From Alphaproteobacteria bacterium (GTDB taxonomy: Bacteria; Pseudomonadota; Alphaproteobacteria; MPNO01; VGEU01), in assembly GCA_016869145.1 (NCBI GenBank), contig VGEU01000018.1, forward strand, positions 1 to 41,419: a stretch of 41,419 nucleotides of DNA, written 5' to 3'. Positions 27,931 to 39,472 of the stretch are shown in pieces. The notes below the pieces were generated by a model. The model had not been told where the DNA came from and ran no database searches. It saw nothing but the letters and a program-made list of their open reading frames with translations. The translations under genes and the position numbers were made by a program. Numbering within the stretch: position 1 is the stretch's first letter; each line of letters opens with the position of its first letter.

Positions 27931-29133
27931 TCACTCGGTTTTCGCGCCCTGGCGGATCCAGGCGCCGATCATGTCGCGTTCCTCGGGCGTCATGCCGGTC
28001 GAGTTGCCGATCGGCATCGCGACCGAGGCGACCGAGGTCGCCCAGATGCGGTCGCGATGGCGCCTGATCTGGTCCGGATTGTCGAGGCGGACGTTCTTGG
28101 GCGGCGTCTTGAAGTCCGGATTCGTCGGCGCTGCCGCGTGACAGTTGACGCACCGCTTGTCGACGATCTCCTTGACCTCGGCGAAGGTGACCGGCGCCGT
28201 CGCGCCGCCGCCCGCGGCCATGTCGCCGCCAGGCGGGGCCGTCGCGATCATGACGGCGATGAAGAGCGCGACACCGGCCGGGATCGGCCACCACGCGATA
28301 CGTCTGGCGTTCTTGAGATTGAACCAGTGGCGGATCACCGCGCCGACCGCGAACAGCGCGAGCAGGATCGCCCAGTTATGCTTGTGACCATAGGTGCCGG
28401 GATAATGGGCCGACAGCATCACGAACACGACCGGCAATGTCAGGTAGTTGTTGTGCACCGAGCGCTGCTTGGCACGCTTGCCGAGCGTCGCGTCGGGCTC
28501 GGTGCCGGCCTTGCGCGCGTTCACGAGCTGGCGCTGCGCCGGAATGATCCGCATCCAGACATTGGCCACCATGATGGTGCCGATCAGGGCGCCGACATGC
28601 ATATAGGCGGCGCGGCCGGCGAGGAGCTGTGTCAGCGCGATCGAGATTGCGCAGAGGAGGACGATGCCGATGACGGCGGACCAGACACCCTTCTGCGCGA
28701 GGGCGGATGTGTAAAGCGCGTCATACACCACCCACGATATGACGAGCGCGCCGAGACCGATCAGGATCGCGGTCGACTTCGGGATGTCGAGAATGTCCGG
28801 GTCGACCATGAACGAGGCCGAGCCGAGATAGTAGATGACGACGAGGAGGAGGAAGCCCGTGATCCAGGTGAAGGCCGCCTCCCACTTGAACCAGTGGAGC
28901 GTCTTCGGGAGTTCCTCCGGCGCGACCGCGATCTTGTCGACGACGTAGAACCCGCCCGAATGGACCATCCAGAGCTCGCCCTCGACGCCCTTCTTCGGCA
29001 CGGCCGGCGGCTCGAGATGGCTGTCGAGCCACATGAAATAGAACGAGGCGCCGATCCACGCGATGCCCGTGATGACATGCGCCCAGCGTAGCGCGAGGCT
29101 CAGCCAGTCGGCGAGAGTGGGATCGAGGGTCAT
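27931..29133 (-). CDS. puuD: Membrane urate oxidase with C-terminal cytochrome c domain
   Basis: A 400-residue protein of the PuuD type, a cofactor-distinct urate oxidase that passes electrons to a haem instead of making peroxide. About eight membrane helices fill residues 10-290, with signatures [50 protein letters not shown] and [17 protein letters not shown] cytochrome c part at about 320-400 carries CVNCH and a later Met in [12 protein letters not shown], a likely axial ligand. Between them lies GGDMAAGGG, a flexible linker. The haem domain would face the periplasm. Spacing to uraD and uraH is 16 and 10 bp. Confidence 0.95.
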
Positions 29134-29149
29134 CCGGCGGTGGGCCTCG

Positions 29150-29659
29150 TCACGGTTCGCGGATCAGCGCGGCCAGGCGGAGTGCCGCGATCCGCTTGAT
29201 GTTGGCGAGCGCCTCGCGCCGTTCGGCGTCGGCATCATGGGCGAGGCGCCGCTCGAATGCATCGAGGATAGAGGCTTTCGTATGATCGCGCACGGCGACG
29301 ATGAAGGGGAACCCGAACCGGCGACGATAGGCATCGTTCAGCCGGTGGAAGCGTTCGAACTCCGCATCGCTCAGCCGGTCGAGGCCGGCGCTCGTCTGCT
29401 CGGCGGTCGAGTGCGCCCCGAGCGTGCCCGACCGCGCCGCGCACCCGGCGAGATCGGGATGCGCGCGGATCAGCGCGAGCTGGGTGTCCGCTCCCGCATT
29501 GGCGACGACCGCGGCCATGGCGGCCTCGAGCGCGGCGCGGTCGGCGAACGGACGCGCCGACGAGACACTGTCGGCGACCCACGGCGAATGCTCATAGATC
29601 GCACCCAGCGTCGCCACGAAGGCGGCGCGGTCCATGGCGTTGATCTCGGCGAGCCGCAT
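29150..29659 (-). CDS. uraD: 2-oxo-4-hydroxy-4-carboxy-5-ureidoimidazoline decarboxylase
   Basis: A 169-residue helical enzyme that decarboxylates OHCU to (S)-allantoin. It has IYEHSPWVAD, the catalytic-His motif LIRAHPDLAG (His67), STAEQTSAGLDRLSD and LNDAYRRRFGFPFIVAVRDHTK, all typical of the family. The C-terminal end ERREALANIKRIAALRLAALI also fits. Length is normal. Start ATG is at 29659, 10 bp after the ABC permease stop. Confidence 0.96.
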   Translation of the reverse strand: MRLAEINAMDRAAFVATLGAIYEHSPWVADSVSSARPFADRAALEAAMAAVVANAGADTQLALIRAHPDLAGCAARSGTLGAHSTAEQTSAGLDRLSDAEFERFHRLNDAYRRRFGFPFIVAVRDHTKASILDAFERRLAHDADAERREALANIKRIAALRLAALIREP

Positions 29660-29669
29660 CGATCCCGCC

Positions 29670-30446
29670 TCAGGCCGCGGCGTTCCGCCCCGACCGGAAC
29701 GCCCAGTGCACGACGCGGCTCTCGAAATAGGCGAAGATCGCGTACATGACGATGCCCTCGATCGCGAGCGCGACGAGACCGGCGAAGACGAGCGGCATCT
29801 GGAAGTTCGAGCCCGCCTGGAGCATCAGGTGGCCGATGCCGGCATTGGCGCCGACGGTCTCGGAGACGACGGCCCCGACGAAGGCGAGGGTGATCGCGAC
29901 CTTGAGCGATCCGAAGAAATAAGGCTGCGAGCGCGGGATGCCGACCTTGAGCATGATGTCGAGCTTCTTCGCGCCGAGCGCGCGAAGGACGTCCTCGAGC
30001 TCGGGCTCCGTCGTCGCGATCCCGGTCGCGACGTTGACCACGATCGGGAAGAACGAGATCAGGAAGGCGGTCAGGATCGCCGGCACTTCGCCGATCCCGA
30101 ACCAGATGATCAGGATCGGGACGACCGCGACCTTGGGGATCGAGTTGAAGCCGACCATGACCGGGTAGAGACCGCTATAGATGAAACGCGACCAGCCGAC
30201 GACGATGCCGCAGACCAGGCCGAACACGACCGCGATCCCGAAGCCGACCAGCGTCGTCCACAGCGTGACGGCGGAATTGCGCAGGATCGGTCGCCAGTAG
30301 ATGACGAAGGCCTCGGCGATCGCGCTCGGCGCCGGCAGGACGAAGGGATCGACCCGGAAGAGCCGGCACGCGAGCTCCCAGAGAAGGATCGAGGCCGCGG
30401 TGAAGGCCCACGGCGCGATCCGTTCCCACTGCCGTTCGCTGATCAT
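29670..30446 (-). CDS. ABC transporter permease, SsuC/TauC-like
   Basis: A 258-residue inner-membrane permease of the nitrate/sulfonate/thiamine-precursor class. About six helices are present: PWAFTAASILLWELACRLF, TLWTTLVGFGIAVVFGLVCG, ILTAFLISFFPIVVNVATGI and MPLVFAGLVALAIEGIVMYA. The EAA loop is represented by LRALGAKKLDIMLKVGIPRS. ATG at 30446 overlaps the ATPase stop as ATGA. It is embedded in a purine-degradation operon, so a purine, urate or allantoin-like substrate is the best inference; this family is better known for sulfonates, nitrate and HMP. Confidence 0.9.
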   Translation of the reverse strand: MISERQWERIAPWAFTAASILLWELACRLFRVDPFVLPAPSAIAEAFVIYWRPILRNSAVTLWTTLVGFGIAVVFGLVCGIVVGWSRFIYSGLYPVMVGFNSIPKVAVVPILIIWFGIGEVPAILTAFLISFFPIVVNVATGIATTEPELEDVLRALGAKKLDIMLKVGIPRSQPYFFGSLKVAITLAFVGAVVSETVGANAGIGHLMLQAGSNFQMPLVFAGLVALAIEGIVMYAIFAYFESRVVHWAFRSGRNAAA

Positions 30447-31231
30447 TGCCGGCGGACGGTCGCGATCTGGTCGCGGAGCTCGTGGACGATGTCGACGAAG
30501 GCGGGCTCGTAGCAGACCGAAAGCTCGCGCGGCCGCGCGAGGTCGATCCGCCGCGTCGTGACGATCCGCCCCGGGCGCGCGCTCATGACGTGGATCGTGT
30601 CGGCGAGAAAGACCGCCTCGCGGAGGTCGTGGGTGACGAGGATGACCGTGAAGCGGTGCTTCTCCCAGAGGTCGCGCAGCACGCACCAGAGCTCTTCGCG
30701 CGTAAAGGCATCGAGCGCGGCGAAGGGCTCGTCGAGCATCAGGAGCGCCGGCTGGTGGATGAGCGCGCGGCAGAGCGAGGCGCGCTGCTGCATGCCGCCC
30801 GAGAGCTCCCAGGGGTAGCGGTCGCCGAAGCCGCCGAGCCCGACGGTCGCGAGGAGCTCCTCCGCCATCGTCTTGTAGCGCGCATGCTCGGCGCGGAACC
30901 GGCCGCGATGCGGCTCGACGATCTCCATCGGCAGGAGCACGTTGTCGATCGTTCGCCGCCACGGCAGGAGCGTCGGGTTCTGGAACGCCATGCCGGCGAT
31001 CTTGAGCGGACCGTCGACGACCGCGCCCTCGACCGCGACGCGGCCACGCTGCGGGCGCACCAGCCCGGTGACGAGCTTCATCAGGGTCGACTTGCCGCAA
31101 CCCGACGGTCCGACCACGGCGGCGAACTCGCCCTTGCCGACGCTGAGCGAGGTGCCCTGGAGGGCGAGCACCCCGCCGTTCTCGCCGCGATAGGTGAGCT
31201 CGACGTCCTCGATGTCGACAAATCCCGCCAC
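30443..31231 (-). CDS. ABC transporter ATP-binding protein, SsuB/TauB-like
   Basis: A 262-residue ATPase. It shows Walker A GPSGCGKST, the Q-loop GMAFQNPTLLPWR, signature LSGGMQQRASLCRALI, Walker B LLMLDEPFAALD and the H-loop ILVTHDLREAVFLAD. The N-terminus VDIEDVELTYRG is typical. The start is GTG at 31231. The permease start overlaps its stop by 4 bp and the binding-protein gene ends 40 bp upstream. Confidence 0.94.
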   Translation of the reverse strand: MAGFVDIEDVELTYRGENGGVLALQGTSLSVGKGEFAAVVGPSGCGKSTLMKLVTGLVRPQRGRVAVEGAVVDGPLKIAGMAFQNPTLLPWRRTIDNVLLPMEIVEPHRGRFRAEHARYKTMAEELLATVGLGGFGDRYPWELSGGMQQRASLCRALIHQPALLMLDEPFAALDAFTREELWCVLRDLWEKHRFTVILVTHDLREAVFLADTIHVMSARPGRIVTTRRIDLARPRELSVCYEPAFVDIVHELRDQIATVRRQ

Positions 31232-31271
31232 GGCGGCGCCGTCCGGCTCGTCGGCAGCCGTCCGTACGCGC

Positions 31272-32291
31272 CTAGTGCACCATCCGCTCGGACTGCGGCG
31301 GCAGGAAGCGCGTGTCGAAGACGTCGCTCGCCTTGGGCTTGGCCTTGAAGTCGTAGGTGACCGCGATCTGCTCGATCGATCGCGACAGACGCGCCATGTC
31401 GACGCTGCCGAAGCCGTTCGCCTTCACCCACGGCGTCAGCACATTGTCGTTGATCGCCATCTTGAGCCGGTCGAGCTCGATCTTCTCATCGCCGATCTCG
31501 TTCCGCTTGATGACGCTCTTCACCGCGCTCGCCGGGTCCTTGATCGTGTCCCTGACGCCCCTGATCGTCGCGCGCACGAAGCCTTCGACCGCCTTGGGGT
31601 TGGCCCTTGCGAAGTCGGGGTTGACCATCACGGCGTTGCCGTAGAGCACGAGGCCATAGTCCGACATCAGGAGCACCTTGATGTCCTGGTCGGCGACGCC
31701 GCGCGACTTGAGATTGAAGAACGACGAGAACGAGAACCCGGTAATTGCGTCGACCTCGCCCGAGGCGAGCATCGGCTCGCGCACCGGGAAGCCGACATTC
31801 TTGACGTTGACCTTGCTCGCGTCGATCCCGTTCTCCTGCACGAACGCCTTCCATTGCGCGAAAGCGCCGTCTGGCGCCGGGGCGCCGAGGACGCGGCCCT
31901 CGAGGTCCTTGGGCTTCGTGATGCCGGTCTTGCGCAGCGTGACGATCGCGAAGGGGGGCGCGTCGTAGATCATCGCAACGCCCTTCACCGCCTTGTCGGG
32001 ATTCTGGTCGATGAACTTGATCAGGGAATTGATGTCGGCGAAGCCGAGCGGATAGGTCCCGCTCGCCACGCGCGTGATGCCCTGGACAGAGCCCTGGCCG
32101 GAATCGATCGTCACGTCGAGCCCTTCGGCCTTGTAATAGCCCTTGTCGACCGCGACGAAGAACGGCGCGGAGGGCCCCTCGAACTTCCAGTCGAGGGCGA
32201 ACTTGATATCGGTCTGGGCGTCGGACTTGCTCGCGAGCGCGAGGCTCGCGACGAGGGCGGCCGCGAGGGCGGGCGGGGCGGATAGCTTCAT
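31272..32291 (-). CDS. ABC transporter substrate-binding protein, NMT1/THI5-like
   Basis: A 339-residue periplasmic binding protein. Its signal peptide MKLSAPPALAAALVASLALA ends near SDAQ. The mature part shows IKFALDWKFEGPSAPFFVAVD and GYYKAEGLDVTIDSGQG, close to the NMT1/THI5 consensus. GTYPLGFADINSLIKF, GSVQGITRVASG and AITGFSFSSFFNLKSRGV follow. ATG at 32291 is chosen because it begins the signal peptide. It is the first gene of the importer; a 189-bp gap separates it from puuE, with no gene or clear promoter visible to me. Purine-pathway context suggests it binds a purine or allantoin-type compound (inference). It ends in TAG. Confidence 0.9.
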   Translation of the reverse strand: MKLSAPPALAAALVASLALASKSDAQTDIKFALDWKFEGPSAPFFVAVDKGYYKAEGLDVTIDSGQGSVQGITRVASGTYPLGFADINSLIKFIDQNPDKAVKGVAMIYDAPPFAIVTLRKTGITKPKDLEGRVLGAPAPDGAFAQWKAFVQENGIDASKVNVKNVGFPVREPMLASGEVDAITGFSFSSFFNLKSRGVADQDIKVLLMSDYGLVLYGNAVMVNPDFARANPKAVEGFVRATIRGVRDTIKDPASAVKSVIKRNEIGDEKIELDRLKMAINDNVLTPWVKANGFGSVDMARLSRSIEQIAVTYDFKAKPKASDVFDTRFLPPQSERMVH

Positions 32292-32480
32292 GGGGCGTCG
32301 TCTCCGTGATGCGGTGGGCGGGCGCCGTGGCGCGGCCGGCGTGACGGCGCGCCTCGCACGGGGCCCTGACGCTGCGGGGTCACACAAACGCGATGCCGGT
32401 ACAGGGGAACGCTTCGGGCCGAGTGATTAGCGCGTCCGGCGCGGTCCGTCCACTGGCGGCTGCGCGGCCGCGCTGCGGCT

Positions 32481-33398
32481 TCATGCCGCTCGATAGGGGT
32501 GGACGGCCTGCCAGTGGCGGGCGATGTCGATCCGCCGGCACAGCCAGACCCGGTCGTGGCGGGCCAGGTGGTCGAGGAACCGGGCGAGGCCGGCGGTCCG
32601 GCCGGGCCGGCCAACCAGCCGGCAATGGAGACCGATCGACATCATGCGCGGCCGATCCAGGCCCTCGGCATAGAGCGTATCGAAGCTGTCGCGAAGATAG
32701 GCGAAGAACTGATCGCCACTGTTGAAGCCCTGCGCGGTCGCGAAACGCATGTCGTTGGCATCGAGCGTGTAGGGCACGACGAGCTGCGGCCGGCCGCAAG
32801 TCGTGTCCCAGTAGGGGAGATCGTCGCCGTAGCCGTCGGCGTCATAGACGAAGCTGCCGTCCTCGACCACGAGGCGGCGTGTATTCGGGCTGGTCCGCCC
32901 GGTATACCAGCCGTCGGGCCGGGCGCCGGTCATCCGGGTGTGGATCGCGATCGCGCGCCGCATGTGGTCGCGCTCGGTCGCCTCGTTGACGTGCTGGTAG
33001 TCGATCCAGCGCCAGCCGTGGCTCGCGACCTCCCAGCCCGCCGCCATCATGGCCGCGACCGCCTCGGGATTGCGCGCCATCGCCATCGCGACCCCGAACA
33101 CCGTGACCGGCACGTTTCGTGCAACGAACAGTCGGTGGAGCCGCCAGAATCCGGCGCGGCTTCCGTACTCGTAGAGGCTTTCCATGTTCATGTGCCGCGC
33201 GCCGGCGATCGGGGAGGCACCGACGATTTCGGATAGGAACGCCTCCGACGCGGGGTCGCCGTGGAGGATCGCGTTCTCGCCGCCCTCCTCGTAGTTGATC
33301 ACGAACTGGACGGCGATGCGGGCGCTGCCGGGCCAACGGGCCTCGGGCGGCGTGGCGCCATAGCCCACCATGTCGCGTGGATAGTCGTCGTCGGTCAT
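32481..33398 (-). CDS. puuE: Allantoinase, PuuE type (polysaccharide-deacetylase fold)
   Basis: A 305-residue NodB-fold enzyme that hydrolyses allantoin to allantoate without the zinc site of classical allantoinase. It has VQFVINYEEGGENAILHGD near 30-48, HMNMESLYEYGSRAGFWRL, GWEVASHGWRWIDYQ, GWYTGRTSPNTRRLV, DADGYGDDLPYWD and the late motif SIGLHCRLVGRPGR. ATG at 33398 has GGAGA upstream; an upstream in-frame start is not needed. It heads the purine operon, 87 bp after the histidine kinase gene on the same strand. Confidence 0.95.
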   Translation of the reverse strand: MTDDDYPRDMVGYGATPPEARWPGSARIAVQFVINYEEGGENAILHGDPASEAFLSEIVGASPIAGARHMNMESLYEYGSRAGFWRLHRLFVARNVPVTVFGVAMAMARNPEAVAAMMAAGWEVASHGWRWIDYQHVNEATERDHMRRAIAIHTRMTGARPDGWYTGRTSPNTRRLVVEDGSFVYDADGYGDDLPYWDTTCGRPQLVVPYTLDANDMRFATAQGFNSGDQFFAYLRDSFDTLYAEGLDRPRMMSIGLHCRLVGRPGRTAGLARFLDHLARHDRVWLCRRIDIARHWQAVHPYRAA

Positions 33399-33485
33399 CG
33401 GGTCTCCGGATAGCGTGGTGGTCGGGGACGAATGACGCAACGATAGGGGCGCGACCGGCGAAGCGCCAGCGGCGCCGCGTCGGGA

Positions 33486-36371
33486 TCAGCCGGTCACCGC
33501 CGCGCGTGGCCGCGCGACGACGCGAGCGCGGGGGAAGACGAGGGTGGCGACCGTCCCGTGGCCGAGACTGCTCTCGAGTTCGAGCGTGCCGTCGTGGGCC
33601 TGCATGAAGGCTTTCACGATCGCGAGCCCGAGGCCGGTCCCGGAGCGGTTGCGGATCATCGGGTGATCGCCGCGCTGGAACGGCTCGGCGAGCACGGCGA
33701 GCGTCTCGGCGGCGATCCCTGCGCCGGTGTCCTCGATCGAAATGCGCATCGCCCCGCGACGGTCGAGCGCGGTGCGCGTAACGATCCATCCGCCGGACGG
33801 CGTGGACTCGATCGCGTTGTTGAGGAGGTTGAGGAGCGCCTGTCGGACGAGGCGCGGATCGCCGCGGAGGCCCGGTGTCTCGGGCGGGATCTCGGGCACG
33901 AGCGTGACGCCTCGGTCGGCGGCGAGCGTCTGGACCATGCGAAAGGCGGACGCGACCAGCACCCCGACGTCGAACAGCGCGTCCTCGATCTTGACCGAGC
34001 CGGTCTCCACCTGCGCCACGTCGAGAAGGTCGTCGATCAGCTGCAGGAGAAACCGGGCGCTCTCGTGGATGTTGTCGACATAGTCGGCGTAGCGGGGGTT
34101 CTCGATCGCACCGAACGTGCGCCGGCGGATCAGCTCGGAGAAGCCGATGATCGCGTTGAGCGGCGTCCTGAGCTCGTGGCTCACATTGGCGAGGAAGGCG
34201 GATTTCGCGGTACTGGCGAGCTCGGCCCGACGCTGCGAGGCGTCGAGCTCCGCCTCGCGCCGCTTGGCGGCATCGATGTTCACGAGAAAGCTGACGAGGC
34301 CTTCTTCGCGCGTCCGTTGCGCGCGCACCGACCACCAGCGACCGTCCTCGTTGAGGCGATCCATCGGTGGCGGCGGGTTGTCGAACTCGGCGATCTGGCG
34401 TACGATCCACGCCTCCGGTTCCTCGAGCGCCGACCCCGGCGCGTTGCGCGCGGCGATCATCGCGCGAAGGCACTCGGCATAAGCCGTGCCGGCGCCGATC
34501 TCCTCATGCGCGCTGCCGAACAGGCGGCGATAGGCACTGTTGCAGAGGACGAGCCGGCGATCGCGGTCGTAGAGGGCGAAGGCGTCCTCGACGCGCTCGA
34601 TCGCATCCTCGAGCCGCTGCCGCGCCCGCTGCGCGAGGTCCTCGGCGACACGTCGCGCGGTGAGGTCGTGGAGCACGACGACGAACATCGTCTCGCCGTG
34701 GTCGACCATCTCGGTGACGGCGATGTCGACGGGGATGGCGCTGCGTCCGGTCCGGAGGAGGAGCCGCTCGCCGGGCGAGCCCGACCGCGAGATCGCGACG
34801 AGCGGCGCGACGGTGTCGAGCGGCGGCATGTCGGGCGGGTCGGGTTCGAGATGATCGACGAGCGCGGTGCCGATGAGCGACGCGGCGGGCCGATCGAACA
34901 ACGTGGAAGCGGCCGCGTTGGCGGTCGCGATCCGGCCGCGCGCATCGACCGAGAGAATGGTGTCGAACGATGCCTCGACGATGCCGTGCATCAGGGCATC
35001 GCGCCGGCCGATCTGGCGCTGGTGGAGAAGCCGGAGCCGTTCTTCCTGGCGGTAGCCGGCGAGCCCGAGAAGACAGGTGACCGCGATGACCGAGAGCGCC
35101 GGAAACGTGGCGTCGAGGATGGCGCGCTGACCGAGGAGGGCCGCGCCGGCGACGGCGGCGATCAGGGTGAGGATCACGGCGAGGAGTAGAATCTGAACCC
35201 GGAGCCGGCGCCCTGGCGCGAGCGCGATCAGGAGGATGCCGCCGAGCAGCGCCATCGCGAGCTCCACCACCGTCGCCGCGGCCGTCCGTGACAGAAGCCG
35301 GTCGCCCAGGATGCCTTCGATCAACTCGGCGTGGAGCTTGACGCCGGGCGCCGCGATGCGCCGCGGCCCGAGATAGAGATCGGCGAGCGCGGCCGCCGAC
35401 GAGCCGATGAGGACGATGCGCCCCGCGAGACGGGCGGGATCGACGCTGCCGTCGAGCACGCGATGCGCGGGCACGGTCTCCACACTGCGGCCGAACGGGA
35501 CCCAGATGCGACCATCGGGATCGACCGGGATCGTCCGCCCCTGGATCGTGAGGCCGACCGGTGTCCCGTTGCCATCGACGTGGAGGAGAAGGCCGCGCGC
35601 GCCGAGCGAGACCCGGACCACCTCGACCGCGAACCCAAGTTGCAGCGTCTCGCCGACACGGACGACGGCGGGCACGCGACGGACGACACCATCGGAATCG
35701 AGGAAGGTCGTGAAGACGCCGGCGCCCACGGCGGCCTGCTCGATGACGTCGACGTTGCGGACCAGGGTCGGGATGTCGGAGAGCCCGGTGACGATGCCGG
35801 GCGTATAGAGGGTCTGGTCGGGCGAAAGGACGGCGATGCGGCTCTGCGGCGGGCGGTCGTCGGCGCCGCGTCCGGTCGCGGGCGCGCGCGAGCCGTGGCC
35901 GAGGACGACGCGGCTCGCCATGATCGAGCGGGCGAAGACCTCGTCGTTGTCAGGGAGACGCCGGAGCGCATCGGCGGCGGCGGCGTCGGGAACGCAGTCG
36001 GCGAGACGATGCGGCGACAGGCGGTCGGGGTCGGCGAACAGGACGTCGAACCCGATCACCTGGGTGCCGGCGCGGGTCAAGGCGTCGACGAGCGCGGCCA
36101 TCCGGTCGCGGGGCCACGGCCACTGGCCCACCGCGCCGAGCGAGGCATCGTCGATATCGACGACCGTCACCGGTCCCGGCGCATCGTCGCGATCGATCAC
36201 GGCGTGATAGCGATCGAAACTCCAGGTCCGCACGATCTCGATCAGCAGCGGATCGAACAGACGGAGGGCGAGGAGGCCCGCGAGAAGCGCGATCGCGGCG
36301 AGGCGAAGTCTGCGGCGCGGCCCCCGAACGTCGATCGTTTCGGGATGCGGAGCCGAGCCGTGTCGCGTCAG
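33486..36371 (-). CDS. CHASE2-PAS-PAS hybrid-free sensor histidine kinase
   Basis: About 961 residues if it starts at CTG 36371, which overlaps the OmpA stop as CTGA. No ATG, GTG or TTG occurs in this frame between an upstream TAA and GTG at 36233. Starting there would lose the first membrane helix LAAIALLAGLLALRLF. Order of parts: that helix (about 24-40), an extracellular CHASE2 sensor with ITVVDIDDASL-type and GSSAAALADLYLGPR motifs, three helices (ATVVELAMALLGGILLIAL and following), two PAS regions, then HisKA with FLANVSHELRTPLNAIIGF (phospho-acceptor His732) and HATPase_c with LLNLLNNAIE, IEDTGAGI and GTGLGLAIVK. No receiver domain or response-regulator gene is nearby. With FecR and OmpA genes upstream it probably senses the cell envelope. 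Confidence 0.85.
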   Translation of the reverse strand: MTRHGSAPHPETIDVRGPRRRLRLAAIALLAGLLALRLFDPLLIEIVRTWSFDRYHAVIDRDDAPGPVTVVDIDDASLGAVGQWPWPRDRMAALVDALTRAGTQVIGFDVLFADPDRLSPHRLADCVPDAAAADALRRLPDNDEVFARSIMASRVVLGHGSRAPATGRGADDRPPQSRIAVLSPDQTLYTPGIVTGLSDIPTLVRNVDVIEQAAVGAGVFTTFLDSDGVVRRVPAVVRVGETLQLGFAVEVVRVSLGARGLLLHVDGNGTPVGLTIQGRTIPVDPDGRIWVPFGRSVETVPAHRVLDGSVDPARLAGRIVLIGSSAAALADLYLGPRRIAAPGVKLHAELIEGILGDRLLSRTAAATVVELAMALLGGILLIALAPGRRLRVQILLLAVILTLIAAVAGAALLGQRAILDATFPALSVIAVTCLLGLAGYRQEERLRLLHQRQIGRRDALMHGIVEASFDTILSVDARGRIATANAAASTLFDRPAASLIGTALVDHLEPDPPDMPPLDTVAPLVAISRSGSPGERLLLRTGRSAIPVDIAVTEMVDHGETMFVVVLHDLTARRVAEDLAQRARQRLEDAIERVEDAFALYDRDRRLVLCNSAYRRLFGSAHEEIGAGTAYAECLRAMIAARNAPGSALEEPEAWIVRQIAEFDNPPPPMDRLNEDGRWWSVRAQRTREEGLVSFLVNIDAAKRREAELDASQRRAELASTAKSAFLANVSHELRTPLNAIIGFSELIRRRTFGAIENPRYADYVDNIHESARFLLQLIDDLLDVAQVETGSVKIEDALFDVGVLVASAFRMVQTLAADRGVTLVPEIPPETPGLRGDPRLVRQALLNLLNNAIESTPSGGWIVTRTALDRRGAMRISIEDTGAGIAAETLAVLAEPFQRGDHPMIRNRSGTGLGLAIVKAFMQAHDGTLELESSLGHGTVATLVFPRARVVARPRAAVTG

Positions 36372-37387
36372 CGGATCGAGAGCTCGACACGGCGATTTCT
36401 CGGCTCGGGGACGTTATCGGCCGTCGGGATGAGCGGATCGCGCTCGCCGAACGAGCGCACCTCGACGCGCTGTCTCTCGATCCCGAGGGCATAGAGCGCT
36501 TCCGCCACGACCGCGGCGCGCGCCCGCGCGAGGCGTTCGTTGATCTCGCTCGACCAGACGCGATCGGTATGGCCGATCACCGTGATCTCGACCGCCGGAC
36601 GGCGTCGCGCATCCTTGAGCGCGCGCGGTAGAAGACGGCGGGAGTCCTCGGTCAGCCTGTCCGTCCCGGTCTCGAAATAGAGGAGGATCGTCGCGGGCGG
36701 GATCGGCTGCGCATCGAGCGCGGCGGCGAAGACGCGCCTCACTGTCCCTTCATCGAGCCGCACGGCGCCGCCCGGGCCGTCGGCGCCGGCGATCCCGCCC
36801 TGGAGCGGGCGGTCGAGCGCGGTCCGCGTCGATCCCGTCCCGACCGAGACGCTGCCGGTCGTGCCATCGAGGTTCTCGAGCAGCACCACGAGCGTCCGGC
36901 GCAGACCGCGACGCACCGCCTCGATGGCGCGCTCGAACCGGTCGCGGCAATAGGCGATGTCGTCGGGCTGGTGCCCTTCTTCCTCCTCCTCGATCCAGCA
37001 GTCGAACGACGCGACGGCATCGGCGGCATCGCGATGGGCGAGCGCGGCGGCGCCGTCGTCGAGGGCGGCGACGAGAGCGGCCCGCCGTTCGGCGAGGAAC
37101 GCGCGGCGCGCGGCGGGAAGATCGCGCGCCGACACCGGCTCCGGATCACCGGTCTCGCCCCGGGCCGCCGCGATCGCGCGGGCGAAGAAGCGCTCCGAAT
37201 CGGCGAAATCGTAGCGTTCGAACTCGTAGCCCGAGAATTCGAGATAGTACCCGGCGAGCGCGCGGTGAAAATCGGACGGCGCCGCATCGACGCGGACGCG
37301 CTCCGGCTCCGGCTTGAAGGCGCACGCGGCGGCGAGCTGCGCGAGCGACACGGCGAGGAGAGCGGTGCGGGGGCGGATCGCTCTCAT
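36368..37387 (-). CDS. OmpA-family lipoprotein
   Basis: A 339-residue predicted lipoprotein. A signal MRAIRPRTALLAVSLAQLAA ends in the lipobox AAAC, with Cys near residue 22. The middle is helical and charged (about 40-190, including EEEEEGHQPDD). The C-terminal OmpA-like peptidoglycan-binding domain has ILLYFETGTDRLTEDSRRLL, VIGHTDRVWSSEINERLARA, GIERQRVEVRSFGERDPL and PRNRRVELSIR. Start ATG is at 37387; an upstream in-frame ATG would precede the signal by a serine/arginine-rich stretch. It lies 16 bp after the FecR-like gene and its stop overlaps the kinase start. Confidence 0.85.
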   Translation of the reverse strand: MRAIRPRTALLAVSLAQLAAACAFKPEPERVRVDAAPSDFHRALAGYYLEFSGYEFERYDFADSERFFARAIAAARGETGDPEPVSARDLPAARRAFLAERRAALVAALDDGAAALAHRDAADAVASFDCWIEEEEEGHQPDDIAYCRDRFERAIEAVRRGLRRTLVVLLENLDGTTGSVSVGTGSTRTALDRPLQGGIAGADGPGGAVRLDEGTVRRVFAAALDAQPIPPATILLYFETGTDRLTEDSRRLLPRALKDARRRPAVEITVIGHTDRVWSSEINERLARARAAVVAEALYALGIERQRVEVRSFGERDPLIPTADNVPEPRNRRVELSIR

Positions 37388-37403
37388 TCCGCGCCCCTGC
37401 CGG

Positions 37404-37856
37404 TTACCCGGGGACGCGGATCGCGACCCGCGTACCGCGGACGGCAACCTCGCCCCCCGGCGTCTCGATGCGCACCTTGTTGGGGGCGAGGCGGGCGATC
37501 CGTCCGGAAATATAGGTGACGGCGCCGCGGAGCACTGTGCCGACGAAGCCGAGGACGCCGCGCTCCGGCTCGAACCGGAACTCGCAGACGACGAAGGCCG
37601 CATTATTGCCGAGCGTCAGCATCGCGCCGTCGCTGAGCGTGACCCCGACCGAACCGTCGGATCCGGTCTCGAGCCGGTCGGTGATGAAGATCGCGACACC
37701 CGCGGAGGCCGGTAGCCGGTTGTCGGCTCGCACGACATACGCCGCGCCAACCACGGTCTTGACCATGCCGATCGGACGGTCCTCGGCGGCGCCGGGTTGC
37801 GCGGCGAGAAGCATCGCGAGCAATACGGCGACGGCACAATTGCGCAAATAAACCAC
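37404..37856 (-). CDS. FecR-domain secreted protein
   Basis: About 150 residues. A signal-like YLRNCAVAVLLAMLLAAQPG ending AAEDRP is followed by a FecR fold: IGMVKTVVGAAYVVRADNRL, FITDRLETGSDGSVGVTLSD, GAMLTLGNNAAFVVCEFRF, then GRIARLAPNKVRIETPGG and VAVRGTRVAIRV. GTG at 37856 gives the tightest signal peptide; an ATG at 37943 in frame lacks a ribosome site but cannot be excluded. This is a stand-alone periplasmic FecR domain without a sigma factor. Such domains are known in combination with CHASE2 proteins, and here the kinase two genes downstream carries CHASE2, so the two may form one sensory unit. Confidence 0.78.
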   Translation of the reverse strand: MVYLRNCAVAVLLAMLLAAQPGAAEDRPIGMVKTVVGAAYVVRADNRLPASAGVAIFITDRLETGSDGSVGVTLSDGAMLTLGNNAAFVVCEFRFEPERGVLGFVGTVLRGAVTYISGRIARLAPNKVRIETPGGEVAVRGTRVAIRVPG

Positions 37857-38050
37857 CCTGCGCGAGGCAGAATTCCTCAGCGTCCCCGTGAGCCCCGCCG
37901 ATAGTACTAGAAGAATCCCCCATCGACCGCCATGGTCGCGCACGCAATGTTTACCGATGATTTGTACCGAATTCGGCGCCCGTCAGACGATCGCGTGATC
38001 GGTCCTTCGCCCGGATCCGCGGGCACGATGGAGCGCGCGCGCCTCGTCAT

Positions 38051-38066
38051 GGTTGGAATTCCAACC
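38051..38066. promoter_or_regulatory. Perfect 16-bp palindrome in the FecR-CorC intergenic region
   Basis: GGTTGGAATTCCAACC reads the same on both strands. It lies 119 bp before the CorC-type gene, in a divergent gap of about 330 bp without coding sequence, and just before a set of 16-bp repeats. A dimeric regulator site is likely. Confidence 0.6.
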
Positions 38067-38068
38067 GC

Positions 38069-38148
38069 CCGCGTTAGGATTGGACCGCGCTAGGTTTGGC
38101 CCGCGCTGAGTTTGGCCCGTGCTGAGTTTGGATTGCGACTAGACTTCG
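38069..38148 (+). repeat. 16-bp tandem repeats upstream of the CorC-type gene
   Basis: Four related units, CCGCGTTAGGATTGGA (38069), CCGCGCTAGGTTTGGC (38085), CCGCGCTGAGTTTGGC (38101) and CCGTGCTGAGTTTGGA (38117), run head to tail, with a degenerate fifth unit at 38133-38148. They end 37 bp before the start codon, so they probably overlap the promoter or leader. Confidence 0.88.
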
Positions 38149-38185
38149 CCCGTTCCCTCCCGATGGTAGTGGAGAAAGAACCCTG

Positions 38186-39472
38186 ATGATCGGCGTCGAG
38201 CTCGTCGTCGTACTCGCCCTAATCGTCCTCAACGGATTCCTCGCACTGTCCGAATTCGCCATGGTCGCGTCGCGACGGGCGCGCTTGCAGTCGCTCGCTG
38301 CGGCCGGTCGCCGCGGCGCCGCCGACGCGATGCGGCTCGCCGAGGACCCGGGCCGATTCCTGTCGACGGTGCAGATCGGGATCACGCTGGTCGGCGTCCT
38401 GGCGGGCGCCTATTCCGGCGCGACGCTGGCACAGCGCCTCGATGAGGCGCTCGAGGGGGCCGGTCTGTCGCCGTCGGTCGCCGAGCCGCTCGCCTATGCG
38501 CTCGTCGTGACGGGGATCACCTATCTATCGCTCGTGTTCGGCGAGCTGGTGCCGAAGCGTCTCGCGCTCGTCGACGCCGAGCGGATCGGCTCGTTCGTCG
38601 CGCGTCCGATGCTCGTCCTGTCCCGCATCGCGGCGCCCTTCGTCACCGTCCTCGATCTCTCGACCCGGGCCTGTCTCAAGCTGATCGGCGCCTATGACCG
38701 CGCGCCGCGCAAGATCACCGACGAGGAGATCAAGGCGCTGATCGCCGAGGCCGAGAGCACCGGCGCGGTCGAGCCGATGGAAAAGGAGATGATCTCGGGC
38801 GTGATGCGCCTCGCCGAGCGGTCGGTCCGCGCCATCATGACGCCGCGGCCGGAGGTGAGCTGGATCGACCTGGACGCCTCTGCCGACGAGATCCGTGCCA
38901 CGCTGACCGCGAGCCGGTTCTCCAAGCTCCCGGTCGGCCGCGGCACCATCGACGAGGTCGTCGGCGTCGTCCGCTCGAAGGACGTGATGGATGCGATGCT
39001 CAACGGTCGCCGTTTCGATCTCGGCGCCCTCACGCGGAAGGCGCCTGTCGTCAACGACTGGATGGACGCGATCGATCTCCTCGAGCTGCTCAGAAGCTCG
39101 GAGGTGCACATGGCGCTCGTGGTCGACGAATATGGGTCACTCCAGGGCATCGTCACCGCGACCGACATCCTGACGAGCATCGTCGGCGCGTTCCACGAGC
39201 CGGGCGAGGCGTTCGAGCATCCGGCGTTGCGTCGCGAGGACGGGTCGTGGCTGTTCGACGGCGCGCTGCCCTCGGACGAGATGGCCGAGCGCCTCGCGAT
39301 CACGATGCCCGAGGATCACGACTATCACACGGTCGCGGGCTTCGTCCTGTCGCAGACCGGCCACGTGCCGCGGCTCGGCGATCGTGTGCGGTGGCAGGGC
39401 TGGGAGTTCGAGGTCATCGACATGGATGGCCGCCGCGTCGACAAGGTGCTGGCGTCGCGATTGGACGGCTGA
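38186..39472 (+). CDS. CorC/HlyC-family transporter (CNNM domain, paired CBS, CorC_HlyC)
   Basis: A 428-residue membrane protein of the group often called hemolysin C-like, linked to Mg2+/Co2+ efflux. The N-terminal CNNM (DUF21) part has GFLALSEFAMVASRRARLQS (about 18-37), VQIGITLVGVLAGAYSGATL and YLSLVFGELVPKRLALVDAE, with about four helices. A CBS pair follows (RAIMTPRPEVSWIDL; MALVVDEYGSLQGIVTATDI). The C-terminal CorC_HlyC domain has DGSWLFDGALPSDEM, the YHTVAGFVLSQTGHVP motif and GDRVRWQGWEFEVIDMDGRR. GGAGAAAGAA before ATG 38186 supports the start. The gene has its own upstream repeats and converges on the TRAP gene. Confidence 0.93.
   Translation: MIGVELVVVLALIVLNGFLALSEFAMVASRRARLQSLAAAGRRGAADAMRLAEDPGRFLSTVQIGITLVGVLAGAYSGATLAQRLDEALEGAGLSPSVAEPLAYALVVTGITYLSLVFGELVPKRLALVDAERIGSFVARPMLVLSRIAAPFVTVLDLSTRACLKLIGAYDRAPRKITDEEIKALIAEAESTGAVEPMEKEMISGVMRLAERSVRAIMTPRPEVSWIDLDASADEIRATLTASRFSKLPVGRGTIDEVVGVVRSKDVMDAMLNGRRFDLGALTRKAPVVNDWMDAIDLLELLRSSEVHMALVVDEYGSLQGIVTATDILTSIVGAFHEPGEAFEHPALRREDGSWLFDGALPSDEMAERLAITMPEDHDYHTVAGFVLSQTGHVPRLGDRVRWQGWEFEVIDMDGRRVDKVLASRLDG

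Follow-up and report, generated by a model that had tools for sequence, protein, structure and literature searches.

Positions 33,486 to 37,856 of the alphaproteobacterial contig VGEU01000018.1, analysed here over its whole length of 41,419 nucleotides (the window; C18 among the 247 contigs of a 3.93-Mb draft genome, assembly GCA_016869145.1), hold three genes that encode a small FecR-domain protein, an OmpA-domain lipoprotein and a CHASE2 sensor kinase. The same FecR-OmpA-CHASE2 set recurs in proteobacteria, and the enzyme attached to the CHASE2 domain is exchanged from locus to locus. By analogy with the YfiBNR system of Pseudomonas aeruginosa, we see about an even chance that the three proteins form one tripartite envelope-sensing module that works like YfiBNR. 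Rather more tentatively, the set may be the fixed front end of a general type of envelope sensor not described before. It would be joined to a kinase, a partner-switching phosphatase, a cyclase or an HD-GYP enzyme, and the CHASE2 input would be FecR reporting the state of a wall-bound lipoprotein and not a small ligand.

The three genes and their products

The order on the minus strand is FecR, then OmpA, then the CHASE2 kinase. Pfam matches and coordinates bear out the sequence-only reading, which had described three near-contiguous genes for these proteins with a 16-bp gap between the first two; the intergenic gap measures 16 nucleotides (37403-37388). The features are:

37404..37856, minus strand: FecR-domain protein, predicted to be secreted; 150 amino acids, GTG start (PF04773, alignments, structure model with a predicted local distance difference test, pLDDT, of 92.1)
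about 37679-37416, minus strand: FecR domain, residues 60-147 of 150; the protein stops just past the domain
36368..37387, minus strand: OmpA-domain lipoprotein; 339 amino acids, ATG start, lipobox Cys22 assigned by eye (PF00691)
36392..36679, minus strand: OmpA C-terminal domain of the peptidoglycan-binding type, residues 237-332
33486..36371, minus strand: CHASE2-PAS-PAS-HisKA-HATPase_c sensor kinase; 961 amino acids, assuming a CTG start at 36371
35241..36275, minus strand: CHASE2 domain by Pfam, residues 33-377
34254..34991, minus strand: two PAS domains by Pfam, residues 461-569 and 591-706
33525..34208, minus strand: HisKA (722-791) and HATPase_c (837-949) by Pfam, with an SHELRTP motif
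36369..36371, minus strand: CTG, candidate kinase start; the sole CTG from the in-frame stop to the first transmembrane segment (TM1), overlapping the OmpA stop

The FecR protein consists of a Sec signal peptide, recognised by eye, and a FecR domain that is its sole Pfam match (E 2.4e-7); against NF033682, a model for anchoring modules of the LapA/MpAFP type, it scores 26.8 bits, under the NCBIfam cut-off of 50. Its structure model matches best to 5ix9, a domain for anchoring at the cell surface (Z 9.9, 75 aligned residues, 2.3 A), which is also found by a FecR profile search (E 2.6e-8) and which we take to be the N-terminus of MpAFP. The signalling domain of PupR (Z 7.9, 85 aligned, 2.4 A; by its title the structure of a complex) and the anti-sigma domain of BDI_1681 (Z 7.5, 86 aligned, 2.6 A) follow at Z values below 8, which may reflect merely a common arrangement. 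Neither a LysM domain (Pfam, E 0.01) nor an anti-sigma N-terminal domain with a membrane anchor (Pfam and sequence) is found in its 150 residues. The idea that LysM replaces OmpA in OmpA-free FecR proteins was dropped, as LysM occurs in 0 of the 10 tested.

The OmpA domain of the lipoprotein (E 1.7e-15) has Pal, YiaD and YfiB as its closest solved relatives. In an alignment of the lipoproteins from nine FecR-OmpA loci, six of them colinear trios, the lipobox Cys22 as well as Asp275, Asn283 and Arg290 are invariant in 9/9, and two N-terminal cysteines are likewise conserved. Asp275 and Arg290 are presumably the peptidoglycan-site residues of the Pal/OmpA type; with both these and the lipobox cysteine, the window protein has the sequence characters of a Pal/OmpA lipoprotein. 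It scores 45.6 bits against the YfiB-type lipoprotein model NF053585, short of the cut-off of 128. The N-terminal part (residues about 8-160, including the two invariant cysteines) is a member of a wider lipoprotein family in the order.

CHASE2 is the strongest match in the kinase (PF05226, E 6.2e-47, 160.8 bits against a cut-off of 26.3), followed by the two PAS domains, HisKA (E 2.2e-19) and HATPase_c (E 1.3e-22). The model of the sensor, built from 49 sequences (pLDDT 91.8, predicted template modelling score 0.91), has the predicted CHASE2 layout of TM1, the domain and three long helices after it. A search by sequence for a solved CHASE2 relative returned a single match at E 0.65, and no convincing fold match was found (best Z 5.1; 0 Foldseek matches at E 0.001); the missing fold matches are not evidence for a new fold.

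A constant periplasmic set with exchanged outputs

Genes were assigned within loci by profiles grown from the window's proteins, with Pfam run on part of them, and a trio was scored where no more than 600 bp separate FecR from OmpA and CHASE2 lies at most 1.5 kb away. Such trios are present at 31 distinct proteobacterial loci including the window, in 28 genome records and at least 15 families. Repeats were left out (L213, L217, L238 and L210, the same as L164, L200, L182 and L186; L009 and L039, the same as the window), and L130 and L285 are one locus. The layout is colinear FecR-OmpA-CHASE2 at 15 loci, with CHASE2 convergent at 13 and other at 3; L166 was scored colinear after inspection, as no stop interrupts its OmpA frame on the upstream side. 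The outputs, each assigned by Pfam, are class III cyclases (Guanylate_cyc) at 9 loci, histidine kinases at 8 (7 with HisKA; L172 with HATPase only), HD-GYP enzymes at 6 (HD_5, with HHE..GYP in 6/6) and SpoIIE phosphatases at 6, together with one hybrid kinase with a receiver and one locus with no output; these counts are not frequencies, since most trio loci were reached via FecR. Tepidicella xavieri and Parasulfuritortus cantonensis are examples of cultivable bacteria with a cyclase version (L129, L108). The periplasmic set is thus constant while the enzyme varies, an argument for regarding FecR, OmpA and CHASE2 as the input.

Of 32 FecR proteins without a tail beyond the domain, 23 have OmpA on their own strand no more than 200 bp away, versus 2 of 62 longer ones, with a Fisher p of 1.3e-12 that is a guide only, the rows being related and chosen.

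Several variant loci join the parts in other ways. L183 carries a FecR-OmpA fusion of 400 amino acids in two tandem copies (82-2594), whose FecR parts score 21.0 and 22.5 bits, just under the Pfam cut-off of 24. In L111 (5253-7244) an outer-membrane efflux protein of the TolC type carries the OmpA domain as a fusion; the fusion adjoins a short FecR and is convergent with a CHASE2 cyclase. Together with the resemblance of FecR to anchoring modules of the LapA type, this fusion suggests a possible connection with adhesin retention. In L176 (4694-9942) successive genes for STAS, metallo-beta-lactamase and CHASE2-SpoIIE proteins are followed by a convergent OmpA-FecR pair, and an RsbW-like HATPase_c_2 protein is encoded divergently; L179 resembles it, and L254 shares its first three genes. 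Judged by these domains, loci of the L176 type likely place a partner-switching output on the same front end. Taken together, the 30 further trio loci, the kept order, the exchanged outputs and the FecR-OmpA fusion give good support to the earlier suggestion that the three genes are one cassette.

A tree of 50 chosen CHASE2 sequences, with no Burkholderia sequence among them, separates the kinases L035 and L036 from the rest at 100/100. It places 31 cyclases on one side of a branch (94/82), and the window and five colinear kinases fall in between at a position that the tree does not resolve; L035 and L175 have long branches. The window's own genome has a second CHASE2 gene, which encodes a cyclase (L040, contig C64, 721-3462). 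Directly before it, in the usual place of FecR, is a small secreted-looking protein with 0 Pfam matches.

Distribution of the set

When searched from FecR, 131 of the 385 genomes of the class match the window protein at 1e-6. Among places picked by hand, the first 20, near the top and chosen mainly for short frames, have OmpA adjacent in 18 and CHASE2 in the examined stretch in 11, and 20 further mixed places have OmpA in 4 and CHASE2 in 6. In the phylum (398 genomes), a sample of 20 from the 37 listed places beyond the class, once more mostly short frames, shows OmpA next to FecR in 19 cases and CHASE2 in 15.

The search from CHASE2 finds the sensor at 1e-12 in at least 154 of the 385 genomes of the class. 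Every third of the first 118 places listed (n=40) gives 35 cyclases, 1 kinase, 1 SpoIIE and 3 unclassified outputs, and by our own profile 78 of the outputs of 80 named CHASE2 loci are cyclases. Among the fetched class matches close to the window's CHASE2, every kinase output has FecR and OmpA beside it. Outside the class, FecR and OmpA are both adjacent at 10 of the first 30 places listed; at one FecR is adjacent and OmpA lies 2 kb away, 8 have only a longer FecR (7 of them hybrid kinases) and 11 have neither. A further 20 class places picked by hand, many for long frames, comprise 15 cyclases, 4 SpoIIE, 1 unclassified and 0 kinases, and the 4 SpoIIE loci (L253, L254, L255, L258) have no FecR or OmpA in the examined stretch. 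The genomes of these four carry a domain-ending FecR elsewhere, with OmpA near it in 2/4 (L169, L184).

The survey of conserved neighbourhoods that had been proposed with the sequence-only reading therefore gives a mixed answer: OmpA usually adjoins a short FecR and CHASE2 is often near, but most sampled CHASE2 loci lack OmpA.

A number of observations speak against the three proteins being one sensing module. OmpA is absent at 38 of the 40 sampled class CHASE2 places, occurring beside the kinase and the SpoIIE gene and at 0/35 cyclases, and it is lacking at 19 of the 30 places outside the class. For 7 of the 18 FecR-OmpA pairs of the best class matches there is no CHASE2 in the examined stretch, some of these stretches ending at contig ends, and reaching most trio loci via FecR inflates the association. 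More distant class CHASE2 kinases (L033, L035, L036, L038) have no OmpA in the short stretches examined; one of them from the window's order (genome G013, L027/L036) is preceded by a FecR protein of 383 amino acids and, from its gene content, appears to be a second, OmpA-free kind of FecR-CHASE2 kinase. Within the order, a sensor similar at 1e-20 is found in only 2 of 26 other genomes, and 10 homologues of the OmpA N-terminal part elsewhere in the order have no FecR or CHASE2 within flanks of about 1.5 kb. The kinase frame itself has no ATG, GTG or TTG from the in-frame stop to TM1. Finally, SMc02177, the FecR protein of a Sinorhizobium CHASE2-cyclase pathway, is reported to be a Clr target gene that is dispensable for perception (PMC5498481).

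Relation to known systems

In YfiBNR, the lipoprotein sequesters a small periplasmic protein and requires peptidoglycan binding to do so (PMC3375315, PMC2837407). Both systems encode, in one operon, a small soluble periplasmic protein, an OmpA/Pal-like lipoprotein and an inner-membrane enzyme with a periplasmic sensor; the window differs in having FecR for YfiR, CHASE2 for the periplasmic PAS and a kinase for the diguanylate cyclase. YfiR and a GGDEF enzyme are not among the domains over cut-off in the FecR protein and kinase, which are FecR and CHASE2/PAS/HisKA/HATPase only. The relation to YfiBNR is accordingly one of analogy, not membership.

The BiofilmReg operons of Burkholderia encode a FecR protein with LysM, a CHASE2 kinase and mostly a response regulator, first in the operon (PMC5192318). 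They share with the window, and with PA4035/PA4036, a FecR gene immediately upstream of a CHASE2-PAS histidine kinase gene, the kinase being of that architecture here by Pfam; the window differs in its separate OmpA lipoprotein, the lack of LysM and the lack of a regulator on its contig. CHASE2 adenylate cyclase-FecR clusters are described in Campylobacterota, with a phosphodiesterase and a TPR gene as further partners (PMC9239204). These and the alphaproteobacterial cyclases found here share the CHASE2 sensor and FecR neighbour, but their output is a cyclase. The FecR fold is also shared with FecR/PupR-type anti-sigma regulators, although the window protein has no recognised anti-sigma domain, and in part with the N-terminal anchoring module of LapA and MpAFP, although the window FecR has no attached adhesin.

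The earlier statement that FecR and CHASE2 are known to occur together agrees with two of these papers (PMC5192318, PMC9239204). Among the open-licence papers listed by our searches, none describes the FecR-OmpA-CHASE2 trio or output swapping in its title or visible abstract (CHASE2 with HD-GYP was not searched). The FecR-CHASE2 pairing is thus known, and OmpA as a separate partner and the swapping of outputs are apparently new within the open-licence literature searched.

A possible mechanism and its alternatives

In a YfiBNR-like module, the OmpA lipoprotein would sit in the outer membrane and grip peptidoglycan, and the small FecR protein, exported and free in the periplasm, would dock on either the lipoprotein or the CHASE2 domain. 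A change in the relation between outer membrane and peptidoglycan would move FecR between the two and so set the activity of the kinase, which would phosphorylate a response regulator encoded elsewhere. We infer the export and the contacts of FecR, and likewise the signal, the direction in which control runs and the regulator. Of the genome's 30 PF00072 receiver matches, 0 lie on C18, in line with the earlier remark that no response regulator is adjacent, and our own profile of 21 receivers finds none in the 9-18 kb around the colinear kinase relatives L162, L163, L164, L166 and L175. DivJ/PdhS likeness was rejected as a clue to the regulator; the kinases of the window and of four scanned cassettes give good scores with these models, yet far under the cut-off, and the control L036, from the other kind of CHASE2 kinase, scores alike. 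DivK- and PleD-like genes, named by eye, are present in the same genome (L273) and were not used for any claim about the regulator.

The signal sensed by CHASE2 domains is described as unknown (PMC5192318). If FecR and a wall-bound lipoprotein are the input, the question reduces to a binding or deletion test, and one mechanism would span the several second-messenger and phosphorylation pathways that have this front end.

The alternative that survives best, though we think it unlikely, is that FecR contacts an outer-membrane protein (a barrel or secretion pore), as in FecA-FecR, and informs the CHASE2 enzyme, OmpA only tethering the complex to the wall. The match of the FecR model to the PupR signalling domain, solved in complex, and the TolC-type fusion in L111 point this way, as does the response of Sinorhizobium CHASE2 cyclases via the outer-membrane barrel NsrA (PMC13001267). 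Against this, no barrel was recognised among the trio and the scanned neighbours, with no genome-wide barrel search made.

Less probable again is that FecR and OmpA are anchored to the wall as products or targets of the pathway, and that co-regulation, not a part in the input, keeps them near the sensor. The Clr target SMc02177 would fit such a role (PMC5498481). The best match of the FecR model is an anchoring domain (5ix9), and some CHASE2 cyclases have as neighbour a long protein that begins with FecR, for example one with cadherin-like and VWA domains in L094. The trio FecR, however, usually stops at the domain with no cargo attached, the colinear order places it ahead of the sensor, and four dissimilar kinds of output share the set.

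That the locus is an ordinary FecR-CHASE2 kinase operon of the BiofilmReg type minus its response regulator seems improbable. The domain pair is the same, and operons of only a FecR protein and a kinase are reported (PMC5192318), but the window FecR has no LysM, OmpA is a separate gene, and the window CHASE2 groups with cyclase and SpoIIE sensors, split at 100/100 from L035 and L036, in a tree that lacks Burkholderia. Neighbours by chance, without common function, are very improbable. Taken singly, OmpA and CHASE2 are both common families, but there are 31 trio loci, and in 2.19 Mb of context 26 of the 35 frames with an OmpA domain have a FecR frame no more than 200 bp away, against 9 that have none so near; this context is made up of loci selected for FecR or CHASE2 and not of random background.

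The start of the kinase gene

The kinase frame is open from 36413, and its first ATG, GTG or TTG is the GTG at 36233 (residue 47). In the predicted structure TM1 spans residues 21-39, so a start at this GTG would delete TM1; a standard start (ATG, GTG or TTG) precedes TM1 in 5/5 colinear kinase relatives examined. From the sequence, the CTG at 36371 appears to be the simplest candidate. The data do not discriminate for this kinase between the use of a non-standard start codon, an erroneous base in the draft and an allele that is damaged, and all three are possible. The 4-bp overlap of the OmpA and kinase genes given in the sequence-only reading holds if the kinase starts at this CTG, which forms CTGA with the OmpA stop; no standard start supports it.

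Genomic context

The kinase is followed by a polysaccharide-deacetylase gene beside purine-catabolism genes, and a divergent CNNM/CorC gene lies 5' of FecR. By eye, the genes flanking the other colinear kinase cassettes differ from these, so the window's neighbours seem incidental. A scan of 33200-38400 gave 0 promoter-like sites and 2 terminator-like sites where 1.5 are expected. No relatives were found among viral contigs, and no second genome of the window's family is among 61 genomes surveyed or among the 27 genomes of the order. The region downstream of the kinase (27931-33398, minus strand) holds a purine catabolism cluster with a Urate_ox_N-type urate oxidase, whose cytochrome c match is under cut-off, OHCU decarboxylase, parts of an ABC transporter and a polysaccharide-deacetylase-family protein.

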